From the IMG/VR virus record IMGVR_UViG_3300022188_000226, positions 1 to 64,000 of that record: a stretch of 64,000 bases of DNA, one strand, 5' to 3'. Both the position numbers and the translations under genes were made by a program. The DNA comes from a virus. Positions 6,386 through 52,798 of the stretch are shown here, piece by piece. The notes beneath the pieces are model-generated. The model was not told the DNA's origin, made no database searches, and worked only from the letters and a program-made list of their open reading frames with translations. Every line of letters begins with the position of its first letter. The stretch's first letter is position 1.

Positions 6386-6392
6386 GAGACAA

Positions 6393-13382: not shown

Positions 13383-14201
13383 ATGAAGAGACTAGGATGG
13401 TTGGACGGGAAGAAAGACGAGGTAGTTAAATTATATGATTCTGGCAAAACTCAAGCTGAAGTAGCAAAACACTTCAAGGTTTCACAAGCGGCTATTAGCA
13501 CTCGTCTGAGGAAGTGGGGGCTGAGTAACCCTGACGGAAACCGATTTAAAAGATTTGATAATATAGATAAGGAGACTGTTAGACGTCTGTATTGGGATGA
13601 GGAAATGCATCCTGTACGGATAGCAGAAAAATATGGTTGTCATAAACAAGTCATAGTTAACCGTATGAAAGATTGGGGTATCCCTTTGAGAACTAAAAGC
13701 CAAGCTCGTATGGGTGAGTTAAATCCTATTTACGGTGTAGGACATACTAATGGGGCTAAAAAGAAAATGTCAGAGGCTTTTGAAAATGGAAGAGTTATAG
13801 GGTTTAACACACATTGGGGAATTGGTAGTTTTTATGAGACACCAAACCAAGGTGATGTTTGGATGCGATCTGGTTGGGAAACTGTTACAGCAGATTATTT
13901 AACTACTCAAGGTAAAGATTGGTATTATGAGTATGAGTGGATTAAGTTAGCGGAGTCTTTTCGTTACTTACCGGATTTTTATTTACCTGAATATAATTTA
14001 TATATTGAAGTTAAGGGTAGAGTAAAAGAAAAGGATATAAAGATAAAAGATATAATGTTAGCTTCTGGTTATAAATTTTTATTTTGGGATGGAGAAGAGC
14101 TATTAAAACGCGGAATTATAAGTAATTCGGGAAAGACTGATATAAATAAAAAATATGTCAATGAGCCTGATTTTGTAGAAAATTGGGAAAGTTATAAGTA
14201 A
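13383..14201 (+). CDS. Free-standing homing endonuclease, Vsr/PD-(D/E)XK-like with HTH and NUMOD3
   Basis: A 272-aa protein with an excellent AGGAGG ribosome site. Residues ~10-46 form a helix-turn-helix ('TQAEVAKHFKVSQAAI'), and ~62-98 a second one ('HPVRIAEKYGCHKQVI'). About 110-135 matches the NUMOD3 DNA-binding repeat ('GELNPIYGVGHT' then 'KKMSEAF'). The catalytic part at ~160-230 has Glu166 ('GWETVTADYL'), Asp198 ('YLPDFYLPE') and Glu209-Val-Lys211 ('YIEVKG'), the core of Vsr-like PD-(D/E)XK nucleases. Such genes are site-specific nucleases that spread between related phages. It lies between unrelated structural genes, with no intron evident, so it is an intergenic invader. Confidence 0.75.
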   Translation: MKRLGWLDGKKDEVVKLYDSGKTQAEVAKHFKVSQAAISTRLRKWGLSNPDGNRFKRFDNIDKETVRRLYWDEEMHPVRIAEKYGCHKQVIVNRMKDWGIPLRTKSQARMGELNPIYGVGHTNGAKKKMSEAFENGRVIGFNTHWGIGSFYETPNQGDVWMRSGWETVTADYLTTQGKDWYYEYEWIKLAESFRYLPDFYLPEYNLYIEVKGRVKEKDIKIKDIMLASGYKFLFWDGEELLKRGIISNSGKTDINKKYVNEPDFVENWESYK

Positions 14202-20308: not shown

Positions 20309-20716
20309 ATGTTGGAAAATTTTTTAGGTGTAGTTAAATGTGAATTATGTCAGGGTCAGTTGATTGCTGATCCAAAAAGTACCATGGAGGATTATGTTAT
20401 AACCACGAATACTAATGTTACAAATATATTTGAAAATATAGACGTGTTACTAAATAAGTATATAGTCTATACATGTATGTCTTGTGGTAATAAAGTAAAA
20501 TATACATATAAGGAATTAGAAAAGAGTTTTAGAAAGACGTTAACAGAAAAACTTTTAGTGTTAGTAGCGAAAGGGGTAATTGTTGGTACAGAAGTTACTA
20601 TGGAACAATATTTTATATATTGTGGTAAATGTCCAGGGTTTGATGGGTGTGGTGGGTGTCCAATATCGGTATTTGATGAATGTAAGGTAAAGAGGTTTCC
20701 AGTAAATGAGTTATAA
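20309..20716 (+). CDS. Small cysteine-cluster protein
   Basis: A 135-aa protein with AAAGGAG before ATG. It has two spaced CxxC pairs ('CELC', 'CMSC') consistent with a zinc ribbon split by an insertion. Near the C-terminus is a dense cluster, 'CGKCPGFDGCGGCP' plus one more Cys, which could bind a second metal or an Fe-S centre. The stop overlaps the start of the 3008-aa gene. The 3008-aa product also carries a Cys-rich patch near residue 180, so the small protein may help fold or cap it. Function unknown. Confidence 0.55.
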   Translation: MLENFLGVVKCELCQGQLIADPKSTMEDYVITTNTNVTNIFENIDVLLNKYIVYTCMSCGNKVKYTYKELEKSFRKTLTEKLLVLVAKGVIVGTEVTMEQYFIYCGKCPGFDGCGGCPISVFDECKVKRFPVNEL

Positions 20717-23700
20717 TCTTCTAAATCATGGTGGTAAAATAACCACAGCTAATAATTGCGTGCACGACTCAAATATAGGCTATGAGGTAGATTTATCTAA
20801 TAATGGTGATGTAGACGAGTGGTTATACTATGATGGTATTCATACATATGGTTGTTGGAATAATTATTTGTTTGGTACATTGTATGATGATCATGTCGTT
20901 ATAGGTAGATATGACCCTTTTCGTCCTGTGGAAGCAGAAGATTACTATTTTGTAAAGATAGTTATGAAACTTGTTTTAAAGGAAAGAGTAAGTTCACGAG
21001 CATACCCATCTAATGGTAGAATTATGTGGAGAACTTTAAGTGATCCTATATGGTCGGATAACAAACAGTATGATTTTGAACTGTATAATGATGAGGAGTG
21101 GCATACTTATTACTTAAATATGGGTGAGGTCCAATGGTGGCAAGGAGATATCAATGACTTAAGAATCTATCCAATATTGGAAAATGGTATAGCTGGTGAT
21201 GACTTTTATATTAGAACAATAGAGATTTTATCAGTTAATACTTATAAGTGTTTAAATTATAGTTGTAGTTATTTTTCTCAATATGAACATAATTGTCCTG
21301 GTATTGGTGAACGAGGTTATTGTAAATCAAAGGATTTGGATGCATTAGTTAGAGAAGGGACTAGATTTGAGTTTGCTGGAGATATACTCTATACAATAGA
21401 GGAGGGCGTAAATGATATTCTCTATGTAAACATTAATGAATATGGGTTTGAAAATATAATTCTCAGTCCTATGCAGAATGTTTCTGGTAAATCTTTGGTT
21501 ATTGCATTGACTAAGGAAATTTCCAAGCTAGATGTCGGTGGTTATGCAGAATGTGATGTAGATTACACTGATCGTGGAGCAATTATAATTTATGCTGGTA
21601 ACTATGTAGATGATAGTACAGTTCGTATAAATGATTCTCAATTGGCAAGGGAGTTACAGTTCAGAGATTATTATGGTAACGATGTTTCTGTGAAGCATGT
21701 AGGTAGAAATCCTGCTACTGGATTTAGGCCTCTTTCTTCTTTTAAGATTAAGACTCACCAAATCTATGGTTTATTAGACACAAGCACAGGTTCCGATTTT
21801 TATTTTAATCCTTTTATACCCAGTGTTGAAGGTGGTCGAAGGGATTGGCTGGCTACTGGTTTAGGAGAACCATCTAAAGATGTTAGGGGGTCTAGTACAG
21901 ACGATTCAGGTATTCTGAGTAGATCATATGACTATGTAGAAAATAATAACAAAACTATTATAGATTTTAATCACCCATTCAATGCTAGTGGAAGAATTAC
22001 TAAAATATATGCTGGAGTAACGTTGGATAATGTTGGGGGTAGTTTCCAGAATCGTGGAACTTTTGATTTAAAAAGAATAGTGCACCAAATGTCTGATGCT
22101 AAAATAATGTTTTTTAGACCTCTTAAGAACGGAAATTTTAGAGTATTACCGATGGAAATTCCTATAAATAACAGAGACCGTGATTTAGGTAATATATACT
22201 CTGCTACTCAGGAGTATGTAGAGCTGGATTGTGATGTATTTATTAATAAAGGGGATCTTATAGGTGTTTATAACGCCAACGTTTACAGAAGTAAGTCAAT
22301 TTCTGGGAGTGAGATTGATGCTCTTTACTACCAGGTAACAGGTAAAGCTGCTGGTAATATATCTGTACGTCAACCTCATGGTAACGGGCAATCTGGTTTA
22401 TTATTGTATGCTAGAGGAGATTTTCAACAAAATCGTTTGGTTTTGGATATAGATTTAGGTAAAAGAGTTAATATAAAAAATATTTATACTAAAGGTGTTG
22501 CTGTAGAAGAACGTTTGGAATATAATATAGCCAGATGTTTGGATGTAAATTGGAGTGTAGATTTGTTTGATGAAGATCATACAACAGGCTATATACACAT
22601 CACTGACCCTTTAATACTACGTTATTTTAATCATCCTAATATTTATTATGGTAAGGAATGTTTGACAGACGGTATAAAAACTGTTCCAGATGGATTGGCT
22701 GCAGATGGGTTTTCAATAATTGGGGGAAATCATTATAACTCACTTTCGGGTGCTATGCATAAAAAGGATGGTGGTACTAATGTAATTTTGTCCGGACCAA
22801 AATATTTTTCAGTTAATGGTGATTGTGAGTGGGTAGGAGTATATCTTCATGCTGGTAAAATAAGTCCATTTTCTGGTAGGGATTTTAGTAGTGACCCAAT
22901 AGCTTTAACTTTACATTTTCCATATCAAGTGGAAAAGTTGATGCATAAATCTCGTATTTACTTTAAGGAAAGATTTAATTTTAGAAGTTTTGCTGTATCT
23001 CATTATAGGGGGGAGTTTTATACAAACGGGACTGCAGATGATGTAAGATATGATTTACTTCCATGTAGAAGTCAATCAGATTTACCTGAAGGTGTAGAGC
23101 CTACTCCATGGCAGCAGATATCGTTGGATGGGTTAGTATATTCTCCAGAATTTTTAGAAAGATGGGATAAACTAAATTTATATTTAGCACAGAACCCTTC
23201 CATAGGTCATTCTATAACTGAAAGTACTGGTGTTTTAGAGAATAATTATGATAGTGATTTTGCTTATTGGGATAAGGAGGGCGGTCTTCAGTATTATGAG
23301 ACTGGTATAATTATAAATAATAAGCAGTTTGAGCAGGCTACTCGACTAGACTGGACTATTATTGAGCATGAATGGACTCCAATAAGAACTAAAGGTTATA
23401 GACTCTATTGTGATTTTCATGAGTCTACTAAAATATGTGAGTTTGAGATATTTTGTTTTGTAGAGAATATACGGTCTAGTATGGAAGGTACTGTAAATAT
23501 AGATTATTCAGCTTATGAAGAAAATTGGTGGACTGGTCAAAATTTTACAGAAATTGATGGTATTCGTACATTTATAGGGGATACTCCACAGTATGCACGT
23601 ATTACTATAACCCCTATTACTGAAATAAAGTTTTCAGATATTGTTTTGGAAGTTAGTTATGAAGATGTTTATATGGGAGAAAAGGGTTGTCAACATATGG

Positions 23701-26700
23701 TTTTACCGGTTGATGTGCAACGTGGTAAAACTAGTATTTCCCAGAAAATTGATTTTAAGAATATATATGGTTTGCCATACGATCTGTATGTAGACGTGGA
23801 AAGTAATTCTATAGTAAATGATGGGGTTATATTTTATAGTATTTTGAATAACGAAGAGTCTATTGATAATCCAGTAATCGGTCCAGATGCTTATTATAGA
23901 AAACACAGTGATTACAGAATAGCTAATGATAATAAGAATGTTGCTATAAATTGTCCAGTGTATGCACTTAAAAACTTATTAGACGGAGCTGATGCTTGGT
24001 ACTCACATGACAGAGAATACTCGTGGAAGTATTGGGGTAAGATTACTGAAGGTAATAATCTTAATTTCAGTAACTTGCCTAATTCGGCAATAACTACAAT
24101 TAATGTACCAGTATTTACTAGAAGTAAGTGGTGGAAAATAGGGTTTTTTGACCCACGTATAGTAATGACTGTAAGAGAGGTACATGTATTTTATCGGGAT
24201 GAAGAAATACCTGATGTTACTTTTTATCATCACAAGAATCAGAACGTTATAACTGGTGCAAATACAGATATTGCACCGCATTTACAAGATGGGATAGTTG
24301 ATGGGAGTTATTACATATTAAAAGGGGACAACTATATAGGTTTTGAACTTCCAGAGGTGCAGGAGGTTGATCGAATAGTATTATATCATGATTTTAAAAA
24401 TGACTATGAAAATAGTCATGATATTGCTGGAATAGACGTTGATACTAGCCTGTGTATACATGGTGAAGGAGATCATTATCAAACAGATTCTATTGTTGAC
24501 GAAAGTTATTACGAGCACACCATTCAAGTAGTCGGTAGTGGTATATACACAGATGAAAGGTATACTGATATATATTATGATTTTACACAAGATTTTTCAG
24601 ACTGTGTGAACACAGTAGAACTATTTGACGGTCCTGATATAGATACTAGTAGATGGACAGATTTAGTTGGTGCAAGTATAGAGAGTGGTGAACTCAATAT
24701 TACTAATTCTGGTGTTGTCGGCGAAGTAACCACTGTGCCATATTACTATGGAGATTTTGATGTTACTGTAGACTTGAGTATTGATGGTGAATTTGAAGAT
24801 AATCCTGGTTGGGGTTGTTGTTTGGAAGCAAGGACAGACGATAATAGATATATTAGAGTTGAACGTAGTTACATGTTTTTACATGGTCAAGGTGTTTTTG
24901 GTTATGTAAACTCACTTTTAGGTACAGATTTAATGGGATATGCACAAACTGATGTCGAAGTGGGAATACAACTTAGACTGTGTAGAACTGATGAGGGAAC
25001 ATCTGCTTATGCAATTGTAGACGGTTTTCAACATTTTTTAGGGGATACTACGGTTTTGGGTACAGATGCTATAAAATTTAGGCTTTTGTCAAATCTTTCA
25101 CCGTTAGCCATGAGTGTAACTGTTGGTAAATTTGATAATTTTACTATAGATAATTCAGACGCAGATTGGGGGGTAAACCCCGATTATAGTTCTTCATTTA
25201 CTTGTACAAGTGGCTTACCCACATCAGTTTCGGGTGGGTGGGGGTACTATTATAATGTAGGTACAGGAAATTTTGCTTCCGGTGCTGGTTATAAAATTCC
25301 AAGAATAAATGAAGTTCAAGCATATCCTATGGATCAAGATTTTGAATTTACATTTAAATTTATGTTTCAAGGTGAATCTTTTATGGATTATCTTGATAAT
25401 TCAAGTGATTCTTATGGAGTATCAGTCGGTTTACTTGGGTATAAGGTTCAATGGCCTTCAGGCAAGCGTAGGTTGAAGCCTTATTTTACAGGAGTACAAG
25501 TAGTGTTACGAAGGGATAATATAGGTATAGCTACACAGAATACATATTGTCAAAGTTCTTCTTCGTATACAGCACTCAATACGGGGGGCTGCCCTTACTA
25601 TTGTAAGTTTACTGGTAATGGGGAAGGTCAGTATGTCTTGGCTGTATGGACAGATAATTATGACGGTGTTGATATTGTAGCAACAACTACTCTGAATACT
25701 ACACTTACATGGGAAGCCGATAAAGTCGGTGTTGGTTCAGGTTATTATAAAGATTATTATTTTGATAGGGTTGGTAGATGTAAGGGTTGGGTAGCAGATT
25801 TTGATTTTACTTGTCATAAAAAGTCTTTACATCAAAAATTTGGTTCTGCAATAAAATTTAGTAATTTTCCAGGTGAACACTTATGTGTAAAGTATGAAAA
25901 CAGTTCTTTGTGTAACATAACTAAAGAGGGGTTTGCTTTCGATACTAAAAGGTTTACTATAGATTTTCATATAAAATTCAATTCATTACCGACTGTTACA
26001 GGTGATTACGTTTGGCTAATTGGTTCTTGGCACAAAGATCAGCTATTAAGCGGTATTGTGTTTCCACTAACTCCTTCTTCTTGGATTTTATACTTACAGA
26101 AGGTGTCTAGTGGTTATAAGTTAAAATTTAAAGTTAATTGTGATGAATATGTGACCAGTATATTTGATAAATCGTGGTCACCAGATTTACATAGATGGTA
26201 TCATATTATGTTGGTAAGGGGGCCTTCTAGTTTGACTAATGTAGATTATTGTGTGATGATTAAAGATGGTCATGGGATTTCTTGGCATGATGATACTTGG
26301 GGAGATAATATAAGTTGGTCTGGTACAGATGTTACTATCGGAAAAGGTTTAGATGGCTGGCTTGAGGAAATAAGGGTATCTGCAGATTATGAAAAAGGTG
26401 GGGGTAGGGTGGATAGTTTAGGTTCTTATTATGAATATCATCTTAAAACTGTACCAACTAAAAGGTATGAACGTTATTACACTATATCTCTTTATGATAG
26501 TTCAGATAATGTATATTACGGAAAGAACATGGATGTAGATGTTATGTTTGATAATACATACAGTTACCACGAGCTCTTTAGCACTTGGAGTGAGTCATAT
26601 TATACGGTTTTTGCAGTAGATTTTGGTCAACGACACTACCTTGATATAGTTAGAAGTTTTCCGGTAGATAGTTCTTATCAGTTCACTAAGACCTCTAATA

Positions 26701-29700
26701 TACTATATTCTAATAAAGATACGGTAGATCCAGTAGAGGCTTTTTCTCTTACAGAGGAAGAACAGGAATTAAGTACAGGGTTTAACGGGCAGAATCATAA
26801 TTATCCTCATAATTTTATAAGTTATGATACAACAAAAGCTACTTCTTACATTATAGATGATACTTTTTATCAGATGGTTAATCCTAATGTTGGTCAAGAA
26901 TACGCTAGAGCTGATTTCAAACCATACTTTAAAGGGAATTTTGATGTACAGATAGATTTTGATTTGGGTGCCGATAGTCCTTCTGGAGGAGGTACATGGC
27001 AATTACAATTACAGTTTGAAGTTATAGATAATTCTAATTTTGCAGTTATGGTAGAGAGGTCTTTTAGAGATAATTCGGATCAGTATGCTTTTTGGGTTAA
27101 GGACAATAACAGTTCATGGGCCAAGAAGTCCATTGCTTATTACCAACATCAACGAGGTTCTTTACGGTTAATTAGAGAAAACCAGATTTTTAAAGCATAT
27201 TATAAAGAGAAAAATGCTACTAAATGGTCAGACTTAGGGTTTTGGCAGATGAGAAATACTTTCAACCCTGAAACTACTCTTAAGTTATATACAATTAGTG
27301 ATGCTCCTTTATACCCTAAAATAGAAAATTGGTGGGATAATTTTATTGTCAATTTTGGAGAGCCTTTGTATAGTACTTACACAGATACAAGATGGGCTAA
27401 AATAAAGATGTTGAATGGTGATGGGGTATCTCGTATTATAAAGAATGCGGGGTTTTATCCTAGTATATACGAGCAGAATAATGAAATAGGGCAGTATAAT
27501 TGTATTTGGGAATCATTGGGCACGGCTATTACAAGTTATGCAGGTGACGATAATCTAGCTTTAGGAGTTACTTGTTCTGGGTCATCTTATGTTGGTGTAA
27601 TGACTCCAGATAAGGCAGTTAATGGCGTAACAACAGAAGGGGATTTTAGTCAATGTTGGGGTTCAGAGGAAGAAAGTACCCCTTGGATTACACTGCATTT
27701 AACTGAGTTAGAGCAAATATATAGGATTAGAATACATCACGGATATGAAGATAAGAATACACTTAATATAATTTTTGATTATAAAGTTCAAGTTTCTACA
27801 GATAATGAAACTTTTACGACTATATTTAATATAGAATCTAATACGATGTCCATAAGGACTCATGATTTGATTTATCCTGTTTGGGCTAAGCAGATAAGAA
27901 TATATGTAACTAATTACAGGGCTATTAATCGATATGTTTGGACGGGGGAAGAAAGAGGTTTTCAGTTCTGGAAGGGGGCAATTCTTAGAGAAATTGAGGT
28001 GTATAAATATTATGGGTTTACAGTTATAAATAGTGAAGATACCCCAGTAATTGCTATAGACCTGAAACAACAGTTTTTTATAGAAGGGCATTCTCTTATA
28101 GGTATTGACGCACATCAAAATGGAGACGGTAGTTATAGTGCATGCTGGAGTAATAATAGTAGTAATTTTACATATTGTAATAGTGACTTATCAGATCCAA
28201 AAAAAGTTGAATTTCGTCCTTGGGGTAGTACTCCTAAATATGATAAGTGGGTGGCTATAAAGAGGAATACGGCTTCAAAGTACCCAGAAACTTCTCCAGA
28301 TATACCTGATTACTTAAAGCATGTTATTATTAAAGGAGCTGAAGATGAGGATGGTACAGCACCTAATCCTTTTGAATATCCATGGTTTTGGGAATCTACT
28401 GTCAGCCAGTTAAGCTATGATTATAGTATGTTAGCCTCTAATCCATCCGGTGGTTTTGGGCATTCTCTTTCTAGATCTTTAAAAATAGAATATCCAGCAA
28501 CTACAGAAGCAGAGCATATATATTTTATTGAAGGTGACGTGTTTGGAAAGGATGAGGTGTGTTCTTGTAGAGATGGTTTTGGATTCCATATATGGATTGA
28601 TGACATAAATAATATAGACTATGATTTTGGTTATATCTATTTTGGAGGGTTTGATTACACTACGGAACGAAATTCGGTTGTTCATAGTTGGAACTGGTCT
28701 ACTATCAGTGGTACGCTACAAAATGGATGGAATAATCTAAACCTTACGTTTTTGTATGCAGATGAAATATCTTATACAGAGTTGTCTAATACGTATGGTG
28801 ATGATTCTAGAAGACTTTGGACAATTGATTGGGGAAAAATAGGTCTTGTGTTTAGAGGTAAGGGTAATCCAATTACAATGTGTATTGATGGTAGTTATAT
28901 AGAAAGAAATCATTTTGAACATGGGTGTTTCCAAGACTATGGGCTGTATTTGCATGCTAATGATATTATGAAAATCCAGGTTGGGGCAATGGATTTTCAT
29001 TCTGGTACTATAGAGTTTTTTATTAGGCCAGATTGGGACTGGGATGGTAGGGATGCATATGGCGAATTTAAGTATAGAACTTTATTTCATTTAGGAAATG
29101 TCGCAAATGATATGTTGGGGGCTGCTATAGGCCCACGAGGAATTGAAGTTTATTATGGGAATTTATTAAGTGATTTGCATATGTTTGGTGTAACAGGAAT
29201 GAATACTAAGGTTATAGACACTGTTACACATTTAGCGTTTGTGTTTTCTAATGACGGGTCCGGTATAGCCTCAGACAATAGCACAATTAGAGTGTATATT
29301 AATAATTATCTAGTGGCCAAAGAAACTAAACCCTGGAAAGTAAGTGACGATAAACATTTTAACTTTATTTTCGGTGGACAGGGGGTATTGGTTGTTAAAT
29401 CTAAAGGATACTCTCCAGTGAGTTCTGCAGTTGACGGTGTACTTAGTCGTTTAAGAATTCATAATTACTGTAAGACTGATTTTTCAGATTCGTTGGGAAA
29501 TAGCGAATCTCTAAATGATAGATATTTAGATGACCCCAGCCAATTTGTAGAAATTTCTAAAGATAATGTAACCTTTCATAAGGTAGGAAGTGTCGAGTTA
29601 CCATTTTTCTATGAAGAGGTTTCTAACGGAGAATCAATACCTGTATGGGTTCGTTTTAATCTTCCTAAGCATCTTTCAGGAGTAGAGAAAAGAACAGCTA

Positions 29701-29732
29701 AGATTTTAGGTAACTGGGATATAGGAGTTTAG
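20706..29732 (+). CDS. Giant adhesin-like virion protein (3008 aa) with LamG and F5/8C modules
   Basis: A single open frame of 3008 codons starting inside the previous gene. Visible modules: an N-terminal carbohydrate-binding-like beta domain (~1-180) closed by a Cys-rich patch; concanavalin-like segments at ~1300-1485 and ~2050-2220; a LamG-like domain at ~1720-1900 ('RFTIDFHIKFNSLP', 'RWYHIMLVRGP'); a clear F5/8C domain at ~2280-2430 ('DKAVNGVTTEGDFSQCWGS', 'YKVQVSTDNETF'); and a C-terminal LamG-like domain at ~2740-2920 ('SGTIEFFIRPDWDWDG', 'THLAFVFSNDG'). There is no signal peptide. Such modules bind glycans or surfaces, so a long adsorption fibre or tail needle is likely. Regions between modules remain unassigned. 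Confidence 0.7.
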   Translation: MSYNLLNHGGKITTANNCVHDSNIGYEVDLSNNGDVDEWLYYDGIHTYGCWNNYLFGTLYDDHVVIGRYDPFRPVEAEDYYFVKIVMKLVLKERVSSRAYPSNGRIMWRTLSDPIWSDNKQYDFELYNDEEWHTYYLNMGEVQWWQGDINDLRIYPILENGIAGDDFYIRTIEILSVNTYKCLNYSCSYFSQYEHNCPGIGERGYCKSKDLDALVREGTRFEFAGDILYTIEEGVNDILYVNINEYGFENIILSPMQNVSGKSLVIALTKEISKLDVGGYAECDVDYTDRGAIIIYAGNYVDDSTVRINDSQLARELQFRDYYGNDVSVKHVGRNPATGFRPLSSFKIKTHQIYGLLDTSTGSDFYFNPFIPSVEGGRRDWLATGLGEPSKDVRGSSTDDSGILSRSYDYVENNNKTIIDFNHPFNASGRITKIYAGVTLDNVGGSFQNRGTFDLKRIVHQMSDAKIMFFRPLKNGNFRVLPMEIPINNRDRDLGNIYSATQEYVELDCDVFINKGDLIGVYNANVYRSKSISGSEIDALYYQVTGKAAGNISVRQPHGNGQSGLLLYARGDFQQNRLVLDIDLGKRVNIKNIYTKGVAVEERLEYNIARCLDVNWSVDLFDEDHTTGYIHITDPLILRYFNHPNIYYGKECLTDGIKTVPDGLAADGFSIIGGNHYNSLSGAMHKKDGGTNVILSGPKYFSVNGDCEWVGVYLHAGKISPFSGRDFSSDPIALTLHFPYQVEKLMHKSRIYFKERFNFRSFAVSHYRGEFYTNGTADDVRYDLLPCRSQSDLPEGVEPTPWQQISLDGLVYSPEFLERWDKLNLYLAQNPSIGHSITESTGVLENNYDSDFAYWDKEGGLQYYETGIIINNKQFEQATRLDWTIIEHEWTPIRTKGYRLYCDFHESTKICEFEIFCFVENIRSSMEGTVNIDYSAYEENWWTGQNFTEIDGIRTFIGDTPQYARITITPITEIKFSDIVLEVSYEDVYMGEKGCQHMVLPVDVQRGKTSISQKIDFKNIYGLPYDLYVDVESNSIVNDGVIFYSILNNEESIDNPVIGPDAYYRKHSDYRIANDNKNVAINCPVYALKNLLDGADAWYSHDREYSWKYWGKITEGNNLNFSNLPNSAITTINVPVFTRSKWWKIGFFDPRIVMTVREVHVFYRDEEIPDVTFYHHKNQNVITGANTDIAPHLQDGIVDGSYYILKGDNYIGFELPEVQEVDRIVLYHDFKNDYENSHDIAGIDVDTSLCIHGEGDHYQTDSIVDESYYEHTIQVVGSGIYTDERYTDIYYDFTQDFSDCVNTVELFDGPDIDTSRWTDLVGASIESGELNITNSGVVGEVTTVPYYYGDFDVTVDLSIDGEFEDNPGWGCCLEARTDDNRYIRVERSYMFLHGQGVFGYVNSLLGTDLMGYAQTDVEVGIQLRLCRTDEGTSAYAIVDGFQHFLGDTTVLGTDAIKFRLLSNLSPLAMSVTVGKFDNFTIDNSDADWGVNPDYSSSFTCTSGLPTSVSGGWGYYYNVGTGNFASGAGYKIPRINEVQAYPMDQDFEFTFKFMFQGESFMDYLDNSSDSYGVSVGLLGYKVQWPSGKRRLKPYFTGVQVVLRRDNIGIATQNTYCQSSSSYTALNTGGCPYYCKFTGNGEGQYVLAVWTDNYDGVDIVATTTLNTTLTWEADKVGVGSGYYKDYYFDRVGRCKGWVADFDFTCHKKSLHQKFGSAIKFSNFPGEHLCVKYENSSLCNITKEGFAFDTKRFTIDFHIKFNSLPTVTGDYVWLIGSWHKDQLLSGIVFPLTPSSWILYLQKVSSGYKLKFKVNCDEYVTSIFDKSWSPDLHRWYHIMLVRGPSSLTNVDYCVMIKDGHGISWHDDTWGDNISWSGTDVTIGKGLDGWLEEIRVSADYEKGGGRVDSLGSYYEYHLKTVPTKRYERYYTISLYDSSDNVYYGKNMDVDVMFDNTYSYHELFSTWSESYYTVFAVDFGQRHYLDIVRSFPVDSSYQFTKTSNILYSNKDTVDPVEAFSLTEEEQELSTGFNGQNHNYPHNFISYDTTKATSYIIDDTFYQMVNPNVGQEYARADFKPYFKGNFDVQIDFDLGADSPSGGGTWQLQLQFEVIDNSNFAVMVERSFRDNSDQYAFWVKDNNSSWAKKSIAYYQHQRGSLRLIRENQIFKAYYKEKNATKWSDLGFWQMRNTFNPETTLKLYTISDAPLYPKIENWWDNFIVNFGEPLYSTYTDTRWAKIKMLNGDGVSRIIKNAGFYPSIYEQNNEIGQYNCIWESLGTAITSYAGDDNLALGVTCSGSSYVGVMTPDKAVNGVTTEGDFSQCWGSEEESTPWITLHLTELEQIYRIRIHHGYEDKNTLNIIFDYKVQVSTDNETFTTIFNIESNTMSIRTHDLIYPVWAKQIRIYVTNYRAINRYVWTGEERGFQFWKGAILREIEVYKYYGFTVINSEDTPVIAIDLKQQFFIEGHSLIGIDAHQNGDGSYSACWSNNSSNFTYCNSDLSDPKKVEFRPWGSTPKYDKWVAIKRNTASKYPETSPDIPDYLKHVIIKGAEDEDGTAPNPFEYPWFWESTVSQLSYDYSMLASNPSGGFGHSLSRSLKIEYPATTEAEHIYFIEGDVFGKDEVCSCRDGFGFHIWIDDINNIDYDFGYIYFGGFDYTTERNSVVHSWNWSTISGTLQNGWNNLNLTFLYADEISYTELSNTYGDDSRRLWTIDWGKIGLVFRGKGNPITMCIDGSYIERNHFEHGCFQDYGLYLHANDIMKIQVGAMDFHSGTIEFFIRPDWDWDGRDAYGEFKYRTLFHLGNVANDMLGAAIGPRGIEVYYGNLLSDLHMFGVTGMNTKVIDTVTHLAFVFSNDGSGIASDNSTIRVYINNYLVAKETKPWKVSDDKHFNFIFGGQGVLVVKSKGYSPVSSAVDGVLSRLRIHNYCKTDFSDSLGNSESLNDRYLDDPSQFVEISKDNVTFHKVGSVELPFFYEEVSNGESIPVWVRFNLPKHLSGVEKRTAKILGNWDIGV

Positions 29733-43540: not shown

Positions 43541-45877
43541 ATGGCTTGGCTCTCAAATTTTAGTAACAGATTAAAATTAACAATACCTGCAGACGGTGTT
43601 GATAGTAGTCTTACAGATTTTCCAGTAATGATAAACCTTTCTTCTTCTTCAGGAAAAACTGGAGCTGATGTCACACCTGTTTTCGATGAATTAGGAGACG
43701 ATCATCAAAAAAGATTTGCTATTACAGAAAATGACGGTACAACTCAATGTTATATAGAAATAGAATATTGGGATGCTACGGAGGAGAGAGCTATTTTATG
43801 GACGAAAATTCCTACTATTTATTCTTCTGTTGATACAGATATTTATTTTTACTGGGATTCAGCTGCTAGTGGGAATACTGCTTACGTTGGAGATACCGGA
43901 GATACTCCAGCACAAAATGTTTGGGATGATAATTTTAAACTTGTAATGCATATGGCACAAGATCCTTCAGGAGGTTCAGGATGTATGAAAGATTCTACTA
44001 TTAATTCTAATCATGGGACTCCTGGTGGTGGCATGGTTTCTGCTGATTTGGTTGATGGTAAAGTTGGGAAAGCTATTGATTTCGACCCAACAGACGATTA
44101 TATCAATATTGGTGCACTTAATACACTTAATGGTCAGACAAGTGTCACTTGGGAAGCGGTTGCTAAAAATAATGCTGATTCTGCTGATCGAGTAATAGCT
44201 GGGAGATGGGCTGCTGATAGTCAATTTCAATTATGGATGGATTCAGGAAACAATAAATGGCAGGGTATAGTTAGAGATGGTGTAGGCGGTGAGTTGAAGC
44301 TGGAGCCTGGACTGGTTGGACCATCTGGTGTTTATCAATATATTGTAATGATTTTAAATGGCCAAAATTTAAATCTGTATGTTGATGTCGTTAATGGTGG
44401 CTCTATAAACAGCACAGCATTTACTACACTAAATTCTGGGTCAAGTGGAGATATTTATGTTGGTGCTGATCAAGACGATGAGCATCATTTTAATGATGCT
44501 ATAGATGAAGTCCGCATTTCCAATACAGCCCGCTCAGTTGACTGGATAAAAGCAACTTACTATAGTAATTGGGATGATTTCATAGTATTTCAACAAGAAG
44601 TAGAAACAAATTGGCTTTCTGACTGGGCAAAAAGAATAAAATTAACAATTGATAAAGATAAAATTGATAGTGTTTTGGTTGATTTTCCTATAAATATAAC
44701 GCTGTCTTCAGATACTGGAATAACAAACACCGATGTTACAGATGTTTTTACAACAATTAGTGGTAGTTCTAAAAAAATAGCCATAACAACAAGTGATGGT
44801 ATAACACAGTGTCCAGTTGAAATAGAAAGATGGGATGAAGGGGTAGAACAAGCAAATTTATGGACAAAAGTTCCAATAGTTGATTCCAATGAAAACACTG
44901 TTTTGTATTTGTATTATGACAGTTCAAAAAGTGATAATGATTCTTATGTGGGAGATACGGGGAGTACTCCAGCACAAAATGTTTGGGATGATAATTTCAA
45001 GCTTGTGATGCACATGTCCCAGGACCCAAATGGAGATGTTGCCGACGCAATAAAAGATTCTACTAGTGGTGTTAATCATGGAACTCCAGCTGGAGGTATG
45101 ACTTCAGTTGATATAGTTGATGGTAAAATTGGTAAGGCTATAGATTTTGACGGTAATGATGATTCCATAGCTACAACTGCGAGTGTTGCTTTTAACGGGG
45201 TGGCTACCATCGATATGTGTATAAAGTTAACTCAGCCAGCATCAATCAGAGGAATAAGCATGAGTTTAACTAATGTTTTTTATACACATAGTGCTAATGA
45301 TTTTATTTATTTTCATGGTACTAGCGATTATTTCAGAATATCAATAACAACAGTAGAGTGTCAGTTGTCCATAGTGTATGATGGTGATACAAGCACAAGT
45401 AGAGTGTGTTGTAATGGGGTGTTTTATGACATAACCCAACAACCAGGACCTACTCACGATATCAGTGCTTGGAGTGGTTATATAACTGGGCATATAAATA
45501 GTAATATTACTAATATGAGTGGTACAATAGATGAGGTTCGTCAGTCTGATATTGTAAGATCAGATGCATGGATAAAAGCAACTTATCACAGTAATTGGGA
45601 TGAACTAGTCAGTTTCGGTGCCGAACAAGAAATGCCAACACATTACTACTATGGATATATTACAGAGGGTGGTGCCCCTGTTAGTAGGACGGTTAGTTTA
45701 TATAATAGAAGTACTGGGGAACTAGTATCTAACACAATTTCCAATGTTAGTACGGGTTATTATTATTTGACCACACCAATGAGTGGGGAGCATTTTATAG
45801 TAGCTATAGATGATGATGCTGGAAAAGATTACAACGCATTGATACTTGATAAATTATTGCCGCGGGGAATAGAATAA
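43541..45877 (+). CDS. Virion adhesin with two DUF2341-LamG units
   Basis: A 778-aa protein with AGGAGG before ATG. It has two tandem units, each a DUF2341-like domain ('RLKLTIPADGVDSSLTDFPV' and 'RIKLTIDKDKIDSVLVDFPI') followed by a LamG-like domain. Both units contain 'AQNVWDDNFKLVMHM' and later 'VDGK(V/I)GKAIDFD'. The duplication is still visible in DNA (a near-identical block at 43905 and 44966). Both units end with 'IDEVR'-'WIKATY(Y/H)SNWD'. The last ~85 residues match the C-terminal module of the protein at 34872-38498. This is a known adhesin/lectin-like combination; glycan binding is inferred. Confidence 0.65.
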   Translation: MAWLSNFSNRLKLTIPADGVDSSLTDFPVMINLSSSSGKTGADVTPVFDELGDDHQKRFAITENDGTTQCYIEIEYWDATEERAILWTKIPTIYSSVDTDIYFYWDSAASGNTAYVGDTGDTPAQNVWDDNFKLVMHMAQDPSGGSGCMKDSTINSNHGTPGGGMVSADLVDGKVGKAIDFDPTDDYINIGALNTLNGQTSVTWEAVAKNNADSADRVIAGRWAADSQFQLWMDSGNNKWQGIVRDGVGGELKLEPGLVGPSGVYQYIVMILNGQNLNLYVDVVNGGSINSTAFTTLNSGSSGDIYVGADQDDEHHFNDAIDEVRISNTARSVDWIKATYYSNWDDFIVFQQEVETNWLSDWAKRIKLTIDKDKIDSVLVDFPINITLSSDTGITNTDVTDVFTTISGSSKKIAITTSDGITQCPVEIERWDEGVEQANLWTKVPIVDSNENTVLYLYYDSSKSDNDSYVGDTGSTPAQNVWDDNFKLVMHMSQDPNGDVADAIKDSTSGVNHGTPAGGMTSVDIVDGKIGKAIDFDGNDDSIATTASVAFNGVATIDMCIKLTQPASIRGISMSLTNVFYTHSANDFIYFHGTSDYFRISITTVECQLSIVYDGDTSTSRVCCNGVFYDITQQPGPTHDISAWSGYITGHINSNITNMSGTIDEVRQSDIVRSDAWIKATYHSNWDELVSFGAEQEMPTHYYYGYITEGGAPVSRTVSLYNRSTGELVSNTISNVSTGYYYLTTPMSGEHFIVAIDDDAGKDYNALILDKLLPRGIE

Positions 45878-46197
45878 TGCCAAATAATTTTAATTTTACT
45901 GAGACAGGATACGATCCTTCCAATTATAATTTCAATTTTGGGTACACTGTACCTACTTTAAGGATTTTGGCTGGTGCAAGTAAGAATTTTTCTTCCATAT
46001 GGGCAGACCCAACAGCTAATATTGAAACAGCGAGAATGTATATAGGGTCAAGAGGACCAGGAGCAGCCTTTTCTGTAGTGGCTTTGGCAAACGGAGTGCT
46101 AGTGGATAGTTATACAATAGATAAGGAAGGAGAACATGGAGAACTTTTAGATAGTGAAGATATAGTAGACATTAATGTAAGCATAGCAGGACTATAA
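45877..46197 (+). CDS. Small virion protein related to N-terminus of the next gene
   Basis: A 106-aa protein with TAATG overlaps at both ends. Its first 30 residues ('NFNFTETGYDPSNYNFNF') match the style of the downstream 1394-aa protein ('PFNFSKSGYSSPSS'), suggesting a common docking peptide. The rest is a compact beta-rich region without motif. Function unknown. Confidence 0.5.
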   Translation: MPNNFNFTETGYDPSNYNFNFGYTVPTLRILAGASKNFSSIWADPTANIETARMYIGSRGPGAAFSVVALANGVLVDSYTIDKEGEHGELLDSEDIVDINVSIAGL

Positions 46198-49100
46198 TGA
46201 GTAATGAGTACTTACCACCAATAGGAACAAGACTACCTTTTAATTTTTCTAAAAGTGGATATTCATCTCCTAGTAGTACTTCTACACACTTTAATTTTAC
46301 TCCACAAGGTAATTTTGGTGTTTTAAAGGCTGCAGTTAATGTATTACAACCGTACTGGTATGAAACTTATACTTATTCTAAAGAATGTCCTAAATATGTA
46401 ATAGGGTATGGCCCTGGTGGTATACAAATTATCAAGGGGCGTTGTATATTTGGTGGTATCAGGGATCTTCAAGGTATAATTATAGGTCAACCTAAGGGCT
46501 ATACAGAAGGGAGTTTACCTGCTTACATAAACAGTGTAATAGCTTCCGGTGTAGGTAATTTGTCTTCTCGTTGTCTGGCTGTAAAACCACAAGATTTGAC
46601 AGCTTATATAGATAAACACGGTCCTGAAGATTTGGGTGGTGAGATTATTCCAGAAAAGTGGAAGGATACTGGTAGTTTACCTGTGTTTGTAGGAGCTCAT
46701 GCTCCTAGAGATATCGCAGCGTGGATAGATGTACATTGTCCAGGCGATCTTGGCGGTGTTTTAGAAGGTATAAAACGTAAAAGTAGTGGTAATTTGGGAA
46801 TGACTTTGGGTGGTACACATACCCCTGTTAGTTTGAGAATGACACTAGAGGATACCCATTTTCCAGAAAATGTACGTGCGTCAATTAAAGCGTGGCAGAA
46901 AGATTTTGTTACTCTTAGTGCTTTTTTAGATGGTTTTAAAAATCGTAGTAGTCAGTTGTTTCCTGCTATGGTTGGGATACATGATCCGATTAATCTTAGT
47001 TCATCAATACGTATGTGGGGTGGTGGTTCTACAGACTTACTTGGGTCATTGAAGTCGTGGGTATCGAGTGACTTGGGAGCACAAATAGATGAGCATCAAT
47101 GGGTAGGGCTTAAAGCTAAGATTGGTGGTTCTGGTAAGGGTAGAGAGGATTTTCCTGCCATACTTATTGTGGATAAGTACAAGGGGTTTAAAGTTCTAAG
47201 TGGTTATATAGATACGCATTGCCCAACAGACCTTAGTTTAAGTATTACAGGGGTTAAGTCGTCTTCTAAAGATTTGGGCGGTTTAATGCATAGTTGGCAC
47301 GAAAGGTGTTTTGGTGGTTTAATCGATACACACGGACCAAGGAATCTTGGTTCAGTTATTCGTGGTTGGTTTTCAGATGTAAATAATTTGGGAGCTGCTA
47401 TTAAAGTGTGGCGTTCTGGTACTAAAGACCTTGGTAGTTATATAGATATGCATTTACCAGTGGATTTAGGTTCAGACGTTGGTATGCATGCTCCATCTAA
47501 CCTTTTTGCGTCTGCAGATAGTCATAAGTATGAAGAGTTGTGGATTATATTACGTACATGGCATCGCGGTATTCAAGTTGACTTACATTCGTACATTAGA
47601 GGTTGGCAAGACGGAAACATTTCTGCTACATTAGGTGCTCATAATCCTAGAGATCTTAGGGTGTACATGAGAGCTTGGCAACGTGAAGTTTTTTTAGATT
47701 TTCCTGCCAATATTTATGGTTGGCAACAAGGTCAAGATATTAGAGCAGAAATTGATGCTCATTCTCCAAGGGATATCAAATTTATAATTAGAGGTTGGAA
47801 GCGTGAAGCTCAGAAAGATCTTTCTGCCGCATTTTGGGGTTGGGAACAAAGAGGTTTGTCTGCTTATTTATTTCCACACCCATACCACGATTTACTAGCA
47901 GTAATTAGACCATGGTACCGTGGTTTAAGTGGTGCTCTTGCCGCTCAGTTAAGGGTATGGCAGGATGGTAATCTGTCTGCCATCTCTGCTGGTCACGTGT
48001 GGGGAGTGTTGACAGCAAAAGTATTACCTCACCCACCACCACCATTACCAGCAACTATTCGTGGATGGCAACGAGATTTACAACAAAATTTACTAGCAAA
48101 TACTTATGGTTGGGGTAAGGGGGATATTAGTGGTACTGTAGGGGCTCACCAGTGGAATATGTTGACTGTTATAATGAAAGGAGTATTCCTTGGTGCAGAG
48201 AGGGATATTACTGGTAGTATGTATGGCTGGGATCGTGGAAACCTTGGCGTTATAATTGATAAGCATAGTCCTAGAGACTTGGGTATATTATTAAAAGGCG
48301 TGGTTTTAGGAGTAACTACAGACCTTTCTGCTAATTTCTGGGGTTGGGAAGAGAGGTGTTTGGGTGTAACCACAAAAGGCGGGCATTTACCTAGAAATCT
48401 TATTGCACACGTACGTATATGTCAAAGGGATTACCTAGATTTGTCTTCTAATATGCATGGTTGGGCTGAGATTGATCTTGGGGCTATTGCAAGTGGACAT
48501 TTACCAGGAGAAATACCTGCTACGATCAGGTCTTGGTATAGGGGAAACACCAAGGATTTGGTTGGGCTAATTTACGGTTGGCAAGATGGAGATTTGGGGG
48601 GTATTATAGGCGGGCATTCACCTGAAAATTTAAGGGGTATCATTAAGGTTTCTGAGAGAACGTTCCGGTTATTTCCAGCTAGTATCTGGGGTTGGAAAAC
48701 TAAAGATCTTAGTATGACTTTAGGAGGTACACATGCCCCTGTCGATTTACAGGCTTACGTAGATGTAGCACAGCGTAAAACTAGATTACTTAATGCCCTT
48801 ATACGTGGTTGGCAGCGGTTAGACTTGTCGGCTTTTATTAATGTTGTACATCTATATGATTTATCAGCAGTGTTGCAATCTATACCACCAAAAAATTTGC
48901 CGGCGTATTTAAAAGTACGGCCACAAAGCACACTTTCAGCCAATACTTACGGTTGGGGAATGCTTAATTTAGGTGCAGTAATCATTAGAATTTATGATGT
49001 AGCTCTACCTGCTAAAATTCATGGCAGAGATGATATGTTTAGTAATCTTCAGGCAAAATTGAGAGGTGTAGGTACTTCTGTAGTAAGAAACCTCACTTCT

Positions 49101-50381
49101 TTTGTAAGAAACATGCATTATCGTACTTTATCAGCTTGTTTAAGAGCTACATACCTTGCTAGTATACAGGCTTATTTACGTGCAATACAGCCTAGAGACC
49201 TTAACGCTAAAATACATGCTTGGCATACTAGAGATTTACAGGGTATATTAAATGGTTGTGATTACCCATGGAATCTAACTGCAGCGATTTGCCCTACAGG
49301 TGGGTGGGATTTACTGACAGCTAATATTTTTCCTAAAACAGCTATTGCTATTTACACTAATCTTAAAGCCAGTGTACACCCATGGGAAATTCGACATTTA
49401 ATGTCAAGTATTACAGGAGCAAATGCTCCATTCCTTAGAGCTATAATAACCCCTTTGGGTTATTCAAGTGCTTTACACGCAAGTATTAGACCTAAGATGA
49501 TTAGGTTGACTACTGTCATAGATATACCTACTATGAATCATAAGGATTTATCTGCTATTATTAACTATCCTTGTTTTAAAACTGGTTGGAGTGACCTTGG
49601 TACTTATATTTGTCCAATATTTAAGAGTGATTTGTATGCTTACATTAAAGCTATTAGGTATAATTATAAGCCTGCCTTGCTTGGAGCCAAAACTGGGTAT
49701 ACAGACTCAATTTCAGAGGTTGACAAATTGAAATTATGTATTACCATATACCCAAACGAAGTTATTTCTGAAGATAAACTTAAGGTATATTTTACTATAT
49801 TTAGTGCTGGTAATTTATTAAGTGCATATATAAAAAGTATTATGATGCACAAACAACTCACAGCCACTATTGTTGCTGAAGGTATAGATCATTTTGTATA
49901 TCCAACACTTGTTAAGAATAGAGAAGTTGTTATACATAAAACATACGAAGGTGTTTTTAAACAGTTTGAATATGTAGAATTTGCTTTTAAGTCAATAGTT
50001 GAGGATTATTACTACAGCTCGGACGGAAATTATGTTTGGAAGAAAGATAGAGTTGATAGGTGGGTGTTGGATGTTAAATCATATCTCCCAACCGATACAT
50101 CTTTAAGATTGAAGAGAAGATTACATAAAGCTACTACACTTTATGACTTTAGAAAATTTCCATCGGTTGATGCTGCAATGAAGTATGCTATAGCTTATGT
50201 AACTGAGCATCCTTATGGTAATTTAGGGGCCACAATATATAACAAAAGCAGGTATGAGGGTTTAACTAGTACTATTAATCCAAAATATGTACATAGCACT
50301 TTGACAGGTTTAGGTGCAAATATTATTCCAGAAGATTTTACAATAATTCTTAGTGCAGGGGATGGAATTTTAAAAATTTAA
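46197..50381 (+). CDS. Giant protein of several dozen short GW / HxP repeats (1394 aa)
   Basis: The start overlaps the previous stop. From about residue 80 to 1000 the protein is an array of ~20-25-residue units of two alternating kinds: '(D/N)LxAxIxGW(x)' and 'DLGxxIDxHxPxDL'. Examples are 'DLGSYIDMHLPVDLGSD', 'DLHSYIRGWQDGNISATL' and 'DLSAAFWGWEQRGLSAYL'. Spacing and the polar-hydrophobic alternation suggest a beta-solenoid or stacked hairpins. A non-repeat C-terminal domain (~1180-1394) with Tyr/Trp-rich strands follows. There is no signal peptide. I do not recognise the repeat family. It is the last structural gene before the replication block; a fibre shaft or tape-like role is only a guess. 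Confidence 0.55.
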   Translation: MSNEYLPPIGTRLPFNFSKSGYSSPSSTSTHFNFTPQGNFGVLKAAVNVLQPYWYETYTYSKECPKYVIGYGPGGIQIIKGRCIFGGIRDLQGIIIGQPKGYTEGSLPAYINSVIASGVGNLSSRCLAVKPQDLTAYIDKHGPEDLGGEIIPEKWKDTGSLPVFVGAHAPRDIAAWIDVHCPGDLGGVLEGIKRKSSGNLGMTLGGTHTPVSLRMTLEDTHFPENVRASIKAWQKDFVTLSAFLDGFKNRSSQLFPAMVGIHDPINLSSSIRMWGGGSTDLLGSLKSWVSSDLGAQIDEHQWVGLKAKIGGSGKGREDFPAILIVDKYKGFKVLSGYIDTHCPTDLSLSITGVKSSSKDLGGLMHSWHERCFGGLIDTHGPRNLGSVIRGWFSDVNNLGAAIKVWRSGTKDLGSYIDMHLPVDLGSDVGMHAPSNLFASADSHKYEELWIILRTWHRGIQVDLHSYIRGWQDGNISATLGAHNPRDLRVYMRAWQREVFLDFPANIYGWQQGQDIRAEIDAHSPRDIKFIIRGWKREAQKDLSAAFWGWEQRGLSAYLFPHPYHDLLAVIRPWYRGLSGALAAQLRVWQDGNLSAISAGHVWGVLTAKVLPHPPPPLPATIRGWQRDLQQNLLANTYGWGKGDISGTVGAHQWNMLTVIMKGVFLGAERDITGSMYGWDRGNLGVIIDKHSPRDLGILLKGVVLGVTTDLSANFWGWEERCLGVTTKGGHLPRNLIAHVRICQRDYLDLSSNMHGWAEIDLGAIASGHLPGEIPATIRSWYRGNTKDLVGLIYGWQDGDLGGIIGGHSPENLRGIIKVSERTFRLFPASIWGWKTKDLSMTLGGTHAPVDLQAYVDVAQRKTRLLNALIRGWQRLDLSAFINVVHLYDLSAVLQSIPPKNLPAYLKVRPQSTLSANTYGWGMLNLGAVIIRIYDVALPAKIHGRDDMFSNLQAKLRGVGTSVVRNLTSFVRNMHYRTLSACLRATYLASIQAYLRAIQPRDLNAKIHAWHTRDLQGILNGCDYPWNLTAAICPTGGWDLLTANIFPKTAIAIYTNLKASVHPWEIRHLMSSITGANAPFLRAIITPLGYSSALHASIRPKMIRLTTVIDIPTMNHKDLSAIINYPCFKTGWSDLGTYICPIFKSDLYAYIKAIRYNYKPALLGAKTGYTDSISEVDKLKLCITIYPNEVISEDKLKVYFTIFSAGNLLSAYIKSIMMHKQLTATIVAEGIDHFVYPTLVKNREVVIHKTYEGVFKQFEYVEFAFKSIVEDYYYSSDGNYVWKKDRVDRWVLDVKSYLPTDTSLRLKRRLHKATTLYDFRKFPSVDAAMKYAIAYVTEHPYGNLGATIYNKSRYEGLTSTINPKYVHSTLTGLGANIIPEDFTIILSAGDGILKI

Positions 50382-50391
50382 AAAAAAATAC

Positions 50392-50419
50392 TTGACAAAT
50401 AGAAATGATGTATTATATT
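50392..50419 (+). promoter_or_regulatory. Sigma70-like promoter before tnpB and the replication genes
   Basis: TTGACA at 50392-50397, a 16-base spacer and TATATT at 50414-50419, in the 171-base gap after the last structural gene. It probably drives tnpB and the coupled replication genes. A GTTAATAACTC...GAGTATTAAC inverted repeat (50495-50534) lies in the leader and may be the element's left-end hairpin. An AGGTACCT palindrome (50433-50440) lies just after the likely transcription start. Confidence 0.65.
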
Positions 50420-50552
50420 ATTATACAGGAAAAGGTACCTGCAAATAAACTGGTCATTGTAGGGTAGATAGACATTTATATACGGAAGAGGTAAGTTAAT
50501 AACTCACGATTAGTGTTTATAGTTGAGTATTAACAAATTATATTTAATATTT

Positions 50553-51656
50553 ATGATTATAAGAGAACTAAAATTACGATTAACAACCAAGCAGAAAAGA
50601 TTACTTAATCAGTGGCTATTCAATTTGACTGGGGTGTATAACTGGGCGATTAGAAAAATTGAATTAAACGCCCAAAATGGGGTTTATTTTAGTAAATTTG
50701 ATTTTGCTAACAGTTTACCGAAGCATAGCAGAACACTTGAAGTTCCATCCCATACTGTCCAGGGTATTTTGAATCAAGCTTATACAACGTGGCAACGGTG
50801 TTTCAAAAAGATTTCTAAACAGCCTAAATTAAAATCTGTTAGGAATAAATTGAATTCGATTCCGTTTCCAGATCCAATTCCTTCAAATAGATTAAAAGAT
50901 AGACTTATTAGAATTCCAAGATTAGGCTGGGTGAAATTTTATAAACAAAAGCTTCCTGATGGTATAATTAAGAATGCCAGGATTATCAAAAGAGCTTCTG
51001 GCTGGTACCTTCAGTTAACCATAGATACAAATTATAAGTTTCCAGTGAAGAAAACTAGTGCCAAGGTTGGAATTGATACTGGTTTCAAATATCTAGCAGT
51101 TCTTTCTGACGGTATAAAAATCAGTAACAAACGGCACCTCGTTAAAGGTCAGAAACGTTTAGCTCAAGCTCAGCGTGGTAAACGAAAGAAACTAACTGCC
51201 CGTTTACACGAACGAATTAAATTTAGACGAAGAGACCATAATCATAAGGTTTCTAGATATATTGTGGAAGATTATTCGGAGATTTACATTACAAATGATA
51301 ACTTAAAAGGACAGTCTAAAATCTTCGGAAAGTCTATTTCAGACGCAGGTATTTCCCAATTAAGGCAATTCATTATCTACAAGAGTGACATTCACAGTAG
51401 GAAATGTTCCTTAGTTGATTCAAAATACACCACCATGACTTGCTCGATTTGCGGAGCCAAAACTGGCCCCTCAGGATTGAGCAAGCTTGTTGTAAGGAAC
51501 TGGGAATGCAGTGCTTGTGGGGCACAGCTCGATCGCGATCTTAACGCGGCTAAAGTAATTCTCTATTCCGGGCTGGGATACAGCCTCGATAACGTTAAAA
51601 CTCACGCCTGTAAAGGGCCGGAGAACTTTAAACTGGAATCATCGGGAGGTGTTTGA
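50553..51656 (+). CDS. tnpB: TnpB (IS200/IS605 type) with altered RuvC-II catalytic site
   Basis: I take ATG 50553 (367 aa); the N-terminus 'MIIRELKLRLTTKQKRLL' matches the family and the remnant at 59297. TnpB is the RNA-guided nuclease of IS200/IS605 elements. RuvC-I Asp175 is present ('KVGIDTGFKYLAVLSDG'), as are a Cys4 zinc ribbon (Cys297, Cys300, Cys319, Cys322) and RuvC-III Asp329 ('DRDLNAAKVI'). In the RuvC-II strand the family reads about 'DLIVVEDLNVKG', whereas here it is 'SEIYITNDNLKG', putting Thr247 where the catalytic Glu should be. Spacing to Asp329 (82) fits that alignment. Glu239 and Glu243 are near but out of register. The stop overlaps the clamp start (TGATG). Probably nuclease-dead, perhaps an RNA-guided binder; decay is the alternative. 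Confidence 0.75.
   Translation: MIIRELKLRLTTKQKRLLNQWLFNLTGVYNWAIRKIELNAQNGVYFSKFDFANSLPKHSRTLEVPSHTVQGILNQAYTTWQRCFKKISKQPKLKSVRNKLNSIPFPDPIPSNRLKDRLIRIPRLGWVKFYKQKLPDGIIKNARIIKRASGWYLQLTIDTNYKFPVKKTSAKVGIDTGFKYLAVLSDGIKISNKRHLVKGQKRLAQAQRGKRKKLTARLHERIKFRRRDHNHKVSRYIVEDYSEIYITNDNLKGQSKIFGKSISDAGISQLRQFIIYKSDIHSRKCSLVDSKYTTMTCSICGAKTGPSGLSKLVVRNWECSACGAQLDRDLNAAKVILYSGLGYSLDNVKTHACKGPENFKLESSGGV
51540..51656 (+). ncRNA. Candidate omega-RNA scaffold at the tnpB 3' end
   Basis: TnpB guide RNAs normally come from the 3' end of tnpB. Here the last ~115 bases include a hairpin GGCTG/CAGCC (51571-51585) inside a longer TTCCGG/CCGGAG pairing (51566-51571 with 51618-51623). The stretch is richer in G+C than the gene body. 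The guide would read into the clamp gene start, but the right boundary cannot be fixed from one copy, and this tail differs from the other two copies in the window. Confidence 0.3.
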
Positions 51657-52798
51657 TGGGTATCAATTTTACTATAAGTACTGACTCGCTTCAGCGAGCT
51701 ATTAAAGTTTTAAGCGTTGTTGTAAGAGCCAACGCTGTAGATGCAACTGGACGTATTTTGATTGAAGCGACTGAGAATAAAGTCGATTTAATTGCAAACA
51801 ATGGTATTACTGCAATAATTTTTAGTGCTGATAAGGTTAAGGTAACTGAACCAGGCACAACTTCTATAGCATTCAGCAAAATTAGATCTTTTGCCATGTC
51901 TTTTAAACAGTGGGACGGAGAGACTGGAGCAAGAGAATTCGGATTTACATCTGATGAGCGTATAATTAAGGTTTCAGTTAGCAACATTTATGAGAATGGT
52001 AAATCCTCAAAAGGCAATCTAAAACTCCCAGTGTTTAATCCTGCACTTGTTTCAAAACCATCAGCTTTTGGAAAACCTGAATTTGTTATGAATTCTTCTA
52101 TATTCAGGGCTGCCACAAGTAAAGTTTTGTATGCTATTAATCCGCAAGTAGATGTAAATTACATAGCTTTACAAGGTATGAATATGAATTTTGATGAAGA
52201 TCATATTTATTTTGTTGGTTGTGATGGTGTGGCTTTGTCTGAGTATCAAGTAAATAATGTAACGGATAAAATTGATGGGTCAGTTAATCTTCAATATGAT
52301 TTCTTTATGGGGCTTAGACGCTTATTAAATGAGAACATGCAGTCGTTTTGGGAAATTACCGGTAACAGAGTAGCTGTTAAATTTGACGATATTGTTTTTA
52401 TCGGTCGTACTATTATAGGGCATGAATATCCTGAATATAGAGCATCGTTGGATAATTATACAGATTATTTGAACTTAAGTAAGGAATTTCTTATGACAAC
52501 ATTGGCTCCATTCATGGATGTTCTTGAGCCTGAAGATCATTTTAGGTTGACTATGGAAATTAAAGATAAAACTTTGAAGTTCTTTAATGATTTTGCAAAT
52601 ATAGAAACAGAGCAGAATATTCAGGGTGGTTTAGACTTCTCAATTGATATAAATGGTAAGCTTTTGATTCAATCAGTAGATGCTATTAGGGATGATAATG
52701 TGTTATTTAAATTTTCAGACGGAGAGAAACCAATCATATTTGATTCCAGTACGTTTAACGATCAGAAATCTCTTATACAGCCACTTATTAAGAGGTAA
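51656..52798 (+). CDS. dnaN: DNA polymerase sliding clamp (beta clamp)
   Basis: A 380-aa protein starting at ATG 51656 (TGATG overlap with tnpB; GGAGGT five bases upstream lies inside tnpB). Length and pattern fit bacterial DnaN: three similar domains, with 'LSVVVRANAVDATGRILIEA' near the start, 'YIALQGMNMNFDEDHIYFVG' in the middle and a hydrophobic C-terminal strand. The clamp encircles DNA and tethers the polymerase; phages carry it to serve their own replisome. Translation is probably coupled to tnpB. The next gene starts two bases after the stop. Confidence 0.8.
   Translation: MGINFTISTDSLQRAIKVLSVVVRANAVDATGRILIEATENKVDLIANNGITAIIFSADKVKVTEPGTTSIAFSKIRSFAMSFKQWDGETGAREFGFTSDERIIKVSVSNIYENGKSSKGNLKLPVFNPALVSKPSAFGKPEFVMNSSIFRAATSKVLYAINPQVDVNYIALQGMNMNFDEDHIYFVGCDGVALSEYQVNNVTDKIDGSVNLQYDFFMGLRRLLNENMQSFWEITGNRVAVKFDDIVFIGRTIIGHEYPEYRASLDNYTDYLNLSKEFLMTTLAPFMDVLEPEDHFRLTMEIKDKTLKFFNDFANIETEQNIQGGLDFSIDINGKLLIQSVDAIRDDNVLFKFSDGEKPIIFDSSTFNDQKSLIQPLIKR

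Follow-up and report, generated by a model that had tools for sequence, protein, structure and literature searches.

A well-known viral shaft built from short repeats is the triple beta-spiral, found in the adenovirus fibre and reovirus sigma1, in which three identical chains intertwine as a homotrimer. Each of its repeats spans 15 residues (positions a to o), of which c, e, g, k and m are hydrophobic and the turn position j is usually a proline or glycine (PMC3150272). Two further classes invite comparison with the gene described here: the beta-solenoids, and the phage tail-fibre or receptor-binding proteins that carry LamG (concanavalin A-like) domains. The gene lies at 46197..50381 of a 64,000-nucleotide stretch (the window), which comprises positions 1 to 64,000 of IMG/VR virus record IMGVR_UViG_3300022188_000226 (116,257 bases in all); every window feature given below is on the forward strand.

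Repeat units and their order

The open reading frame at 46197..50381 is uninterrupted and encodes a protein of 1394 aa consisting almost entirely of degenerate repeats, just where a reading of the sequence alone had placed a giant repeat protein. Its periodicity is detectable without any trained model, with self-similarity peaking at a lag of 39 residues (z 4.4) and again at 12 (z 3.9). A unit profile trained on this protein recognised 81 units in it, compared with a mean of 5.35 and a maximum of 12 in composition-preserving shuffles, and also found 873 units in 47 relatives outside its training. The unit, x-[DN]-L-[GSP]-A-x-I-x-G-[W/H/hydrophobic]-x-x, measures 12 to 15 residues: spacings are 12 residues in 60% of cases and 13 to 15 for most others (15 in 17%), and hydrophobic residues occupy position 3 in 100% of units, position 5 in 72% and position 7 in 95%. 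The unit scan thus revises the sequence-only reading, which had proposed units of about 20-25 residues falling into two motifs, 'GW' and 'HxP'; both belong to a single unit type that carries W or H at position 10.

As delimited by unit scan, consensus and spacing, the main array covers residues 89-1163 (46461..49685), and further units, supported by the unit scan and an alignment of C-termini, close the protein at residues 1341-1394 (50217..50381). The non-repeat parts are residues 1-88 and a domain at residues 1238-1336. No DNA-level tandem repeat was found in the gene, indicating that the repeats are old and have been kept at the protein level, and ruling out a recent tandem expansion of the DNA.

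The units had also been described as alternating, and this holds in part: W and H units are neighbours more often than expected (23 compared with 15.1 in shuffled orders, P = 0.008), but in the central part of the array they follow a pattern of three. Between residues 461 and 900, the same unit type recurs at lag 3 in 81% of cases and at lag 1 in 21%, and the lag analysis delimits a three-unit super-repeat of 39 residues (12+12+15) at residues 461-898 (47577..48890). A strong super-period of this kind, present in the window protein and in two relatives (L181 and L017), would suit a monomeric beta-solenoid with three or four strands per coil, which would act as a rigid scaffold in the virion or bind the host surface instead of forming an intertwined trimeric shaft. 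So would the single beta-strand per unit predicted for a 691-aa relative, which was modelled at full length with AlphaFold from 26 sequences; its pLDDT of 38.7, however, makes the roughly one short strand per unit a hint of secondary structure only, and no repeat fold can be claimed from it. Five close relatives (L061, L064, L066, L067 and L040) show a period of four units instead, so that the period may reflect duplication history rather than coil geometry, and we dropped the constant three-strand coil as proof of a triangular solenoid. Since super-periods of three and of four units both occur, we retain the solenoid and the trimeric fibre as readings, while regarding the solenoid as unlikely. 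The earlier suggestion of a solenoid or fibre fold is therefore plausible as far as the predicted strands go, but the low-confidence model does not bear it out.

A family in uncultured phages

The repeat protein is a member of an undescribed phage protein family. Searching viral contigs with the window protein as a single query returned no relative, but degenerate DNA patterns spanning two units recovered repeat proteins in about 26 contigs, and subsequent profile searches enlarged the set to 59 distinct members from IMG/VR contigs of up to 298 kb. At least four recognisable units are present in 57 of these, the remaining two being short fragments; a DNA pattern with 15-residue spacing yielded no clear additional members.

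Members begin in one of three ways ('PFxFxxxGYxxPDF', 'QWVxxNxxQW' or 'YNRxxYNSALYNAG'), the first being the type of the window protein and most relatives. In the window protein this motif occupies residues 1-40 ('LPFNFSKSGYSSP...FNF'; 46197..46316). In related loci, a small number of other upstream-block genes also start with it; three of these matches, all N-terminal, reach E < 0.001. This sharing suggests that the segment may dock the repeat protein to the tail.

Towards the other end lies the non-repeat domain of about 100 aa (residues 1238-1336; 49908..50204), which was found in all 48 members tested. In an AlphaFold model of this domain from 48 sequences, six beta-strands and one helix form a confidently predicted core (window residues about 1240-1340), with block means mostly between 70 and 91. 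Foldseek returned nothing at E of 0.001 or better from PDB or BFVD, and the best VIA-align Z score, 5.4, falls in a range common for unrelated folds; matches to profilin, CapZ and LptE-like structures share only a common arrangement of β-sheet plus helix, and we did not count them as relationships. Beyond the domain, four members (L161, L163, L166 and L018) carry a long extension with LamG matches, and others end in a few further units.

Most of the family are proteins of about 23 units (683 aa), whereas the window protein and L181 each have more than 70 units. L181, found through its neighbouring clamp gene, has a frame of 1359 residues in which 71 units were recognised; its alignment with the window protein spans 1350 residues, with 47% identity and five gaps, so the giant length is conserved and not a one-off. 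In BLASTP alignments with the shorter relatives both ends match, leaving residues of about 130-800 (roughly 46584..48596) as extra array specific to this lineage and shared with L181. Against the nearest relative, L179, the C-terminal 311 aa of the window protein give dN 0.069 and dS 0.458 (dN/dS about 0.15), and the L046/L053 pair gives 0.13; judged by these substitution ratios, the family is under purifying selection. Conserved length and low dN/dS together mark the array as a functional protein, and the L181 alignment and dN/dS rule out an assembly artefact or a decaying repeat.

As the sequence-only reading had anticipated, the repeat appears to belong to no named family: Pfam, PHROGs and PDB gave no significant match for the window protein, so that the strong hit to a named repeat family that would have contradicted this reading did not turn up, and relatives were likewise negative. 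Pfam returned nothing for the window protein even at E up to 10 and nothing relevant for eight relatives; the best PHROGs match, to a family of unknown function, was sub-significant (E 0.01), as were those of relatives including L181; and PDB sequences yielded none for the window protein or the C-terminal domain profile and only matches at E > 0.3 for the family and repeat profiles. Nothing significant for the repeat protein emerged from 50,697 phage records. Because BLAST masks low-complexity sequence, the C-terminal domain is the cleaner test against cultured phages, and tblastn with this domain and four relatives also found nothing significant there. In GTDB genomes, where sensitivity was limited, an alignment query of one subgroup located no related locus, and a three-unit pattern hit six unrelated stretches of mostly low-complexity sequence. 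A literature search on the repeat motif strings found no paper. The gene is thus conserved in large uncultured phages yet blank in standard annotation, which we attribute to a unit that is short and degenerate and absent from the cultured phage collection searched.

One candidate from outside these phages was rejected. A Treponema MAG contig (L072, WQSW01000026.1) bears at 6261-6703 of its reverse strand an acidic frame of 1006 aa containing 12-mers of the 'DLSADISIDDSV' type in tandem; this frame matched the DNA pattern by composition and did not match the family unit profile.

Gene neighbourhood and probable function

From 14432 to 50381 the genes share one orientation and are nearly gapless, and the repeat gene comes last. 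Pfam domains in this block include F5/8C, DUF2341 and LamG, and one neighbour matches a tail-protein PHROG (E 9e-17). At 43541..45877 is a gene for which Pfam gives two matches each to DUF2341 and LamG-type domains, and which probably encodes a lectin-like tail protein; directly before the repeat gene is a 106-aa gene (45877..46197) that overlaps it by one base and whose N-terminus weakly resembles the N-terminal motif of the repeat protein (E 0.91). The structural region also holds a 3008-aa protein (20706-29732), in which an F5/8 type C (galactose-binding-like) domain lies close to the C-terminal part, and a homing-endonuclease-like gene (13383-14201) with HTH, NUMOD3 and endonuclease matches.

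Downstream, a pattern scan identified a sigma-70-like promoter candidate (50392..50419; 11 of 12 matches), whose sequence also occurs in L179. Next comes a module with genes for a sliding clamp, RecA, DnaB and a DnaG-like protein; its clamp-like gene, at 51653..52798 (Pfam DNA_pol3_beta), is the one that follows the repeat gene in relatives and that served as synteny anchor. In the window, a TnpB-like gene (OrfB_IS605, Cas12f1-like TNB; 50523-51656) separates the repeat gene from the clamp gene; L179, with a clamp 97% identical, has a short uninterrupted spacer there, and the insertion accordingly looks recent.

Relatives keep the same order of structural block, repeat gene and clamp module. 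The repeat protein was present in all 25 clamp-anchored loci with at least 3 kb of upstream DNA, seven of them on contigs that the repeat searches had missed (L181, L185, L191, L198, L200, L207 and L218). Clamp loci with less than 3 kb upstream often lack it, as is expected where 1-2 kb of extra genes intervene. Given this fixed synteny, the repeat gene behaves as a core gene of the phage group and can serve as its marker.

Three observations in related loci concern other genes. At genome position 64-84 kb (L002), a run of open reading frames resembles glycosyltransferase and sugar-metabolism genes when the first residues are compared by eye. A ribonucleotide reductase large-subunit frame (L003:8423-13255, genome position about 92-97 kb) reaches 1611 aa, far exceeding the family profile, and possibly contains an intein or a fusion. 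Finally, adjacent frames of 463 and 467 aa (L004:692-2080 and L004:4352-5752) have near-identical starts ('MSYKISGS/NIGTDSRILVFDETTGTITGN') and, by that likeness, are apparently a tandem gene duplication.

The constant proximity of the repeat gene to the clamp, RecA and DnaB module raises the question of whether its product acts outside the virion, either within the cell or secreted during infection, for instance in connection with replication. We consider this improbable: The one-base overlap ties the gene to the upstream structural block, promoter-like sequence precedes the clamp gene, and LamG domains are fused to the repeat protein in four relatives. The gene sits within the structural block, at its last position and in conserved synteny, and our preferred reading is that its product is probably a shaft of β-strands belonging to a tail fibre or adhesin, encoded at the end of a tail-fibre gene block and, in that case, located in the virion. 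With every unit, a long shaft would gain a single short beta-strand (L-x-A-x-I) plus a turn; the N-terminal motif would attach this shaft to the tail, while the C-terminal part and LamG-type lectin domains, either fused or encoded upstream, would present the host-binding surface. The number of units would then set the reach of the fibre, from about 23 in most relatives to more than 70 in the lineage of the window. The neighbouring lectin-like domains suggest that the repeat protein may itself take part in receptor binding.

Comparison with known shafts

The array resembles the triple beta-spiral in its short, putative strand-turn units repeated in tandem, in the variable number of these units and in the alternation of hydrophobic residues, where L3, A5 and I7 recall positions c, e and g of the spiral (PMC3150272). 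A triple beta-spiral shaft of the adenovirus or reovirus type is nevertheless very improbable, since the modal unit is 12 residues rather than 15 and the agreement ends with the first three hydrophobic positions. When c, e and g are set on L3, A5 and I7, the equivalent of the turn position j is position 10, where W or H takes the place of the usual proline or glycine (P or G in 3%); the equivalents of k and m are hydrophobic in only 20% and 12% of units, so that the second hydrophobic pair is absent.

With beta-solenoids the array shares putative strand-turn units in tandem and, possibly, a coil formed by three strands over about 39 residues, but it has no Pfam match, and the super-period is three units in some close relatives and four in others. 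In genomic setting the gene resembles those for the LamG tail-fibre and receptor-binding proteins of phages, which share with this locus a block of giant proteins with carbohydrate-binding-type domains and a long repetitive shaft, the LamG domains being fused to the repeat protein in four relatives; the repeat unit and C-terminal domain, however, match none of the Pfam or PHROGs models of that class.

Building on the tail-fibre reading, we tentatively propose that the [DN]-L-x-A-x-I-x-G unit could represent a β-fibre architecture without a solved example, forming a length-adjustable receptor-binding shaft of large uncultured phages in which the number of units is fixed within a lineage and differs about threefold between lineages. 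A shaft whose length persists over deep divergence, and which is still about three times as long in one lineage, would suit the study of how fibre length is set in phages. If the fold is new, it would add one more entry to the short list of viral β-fibres.
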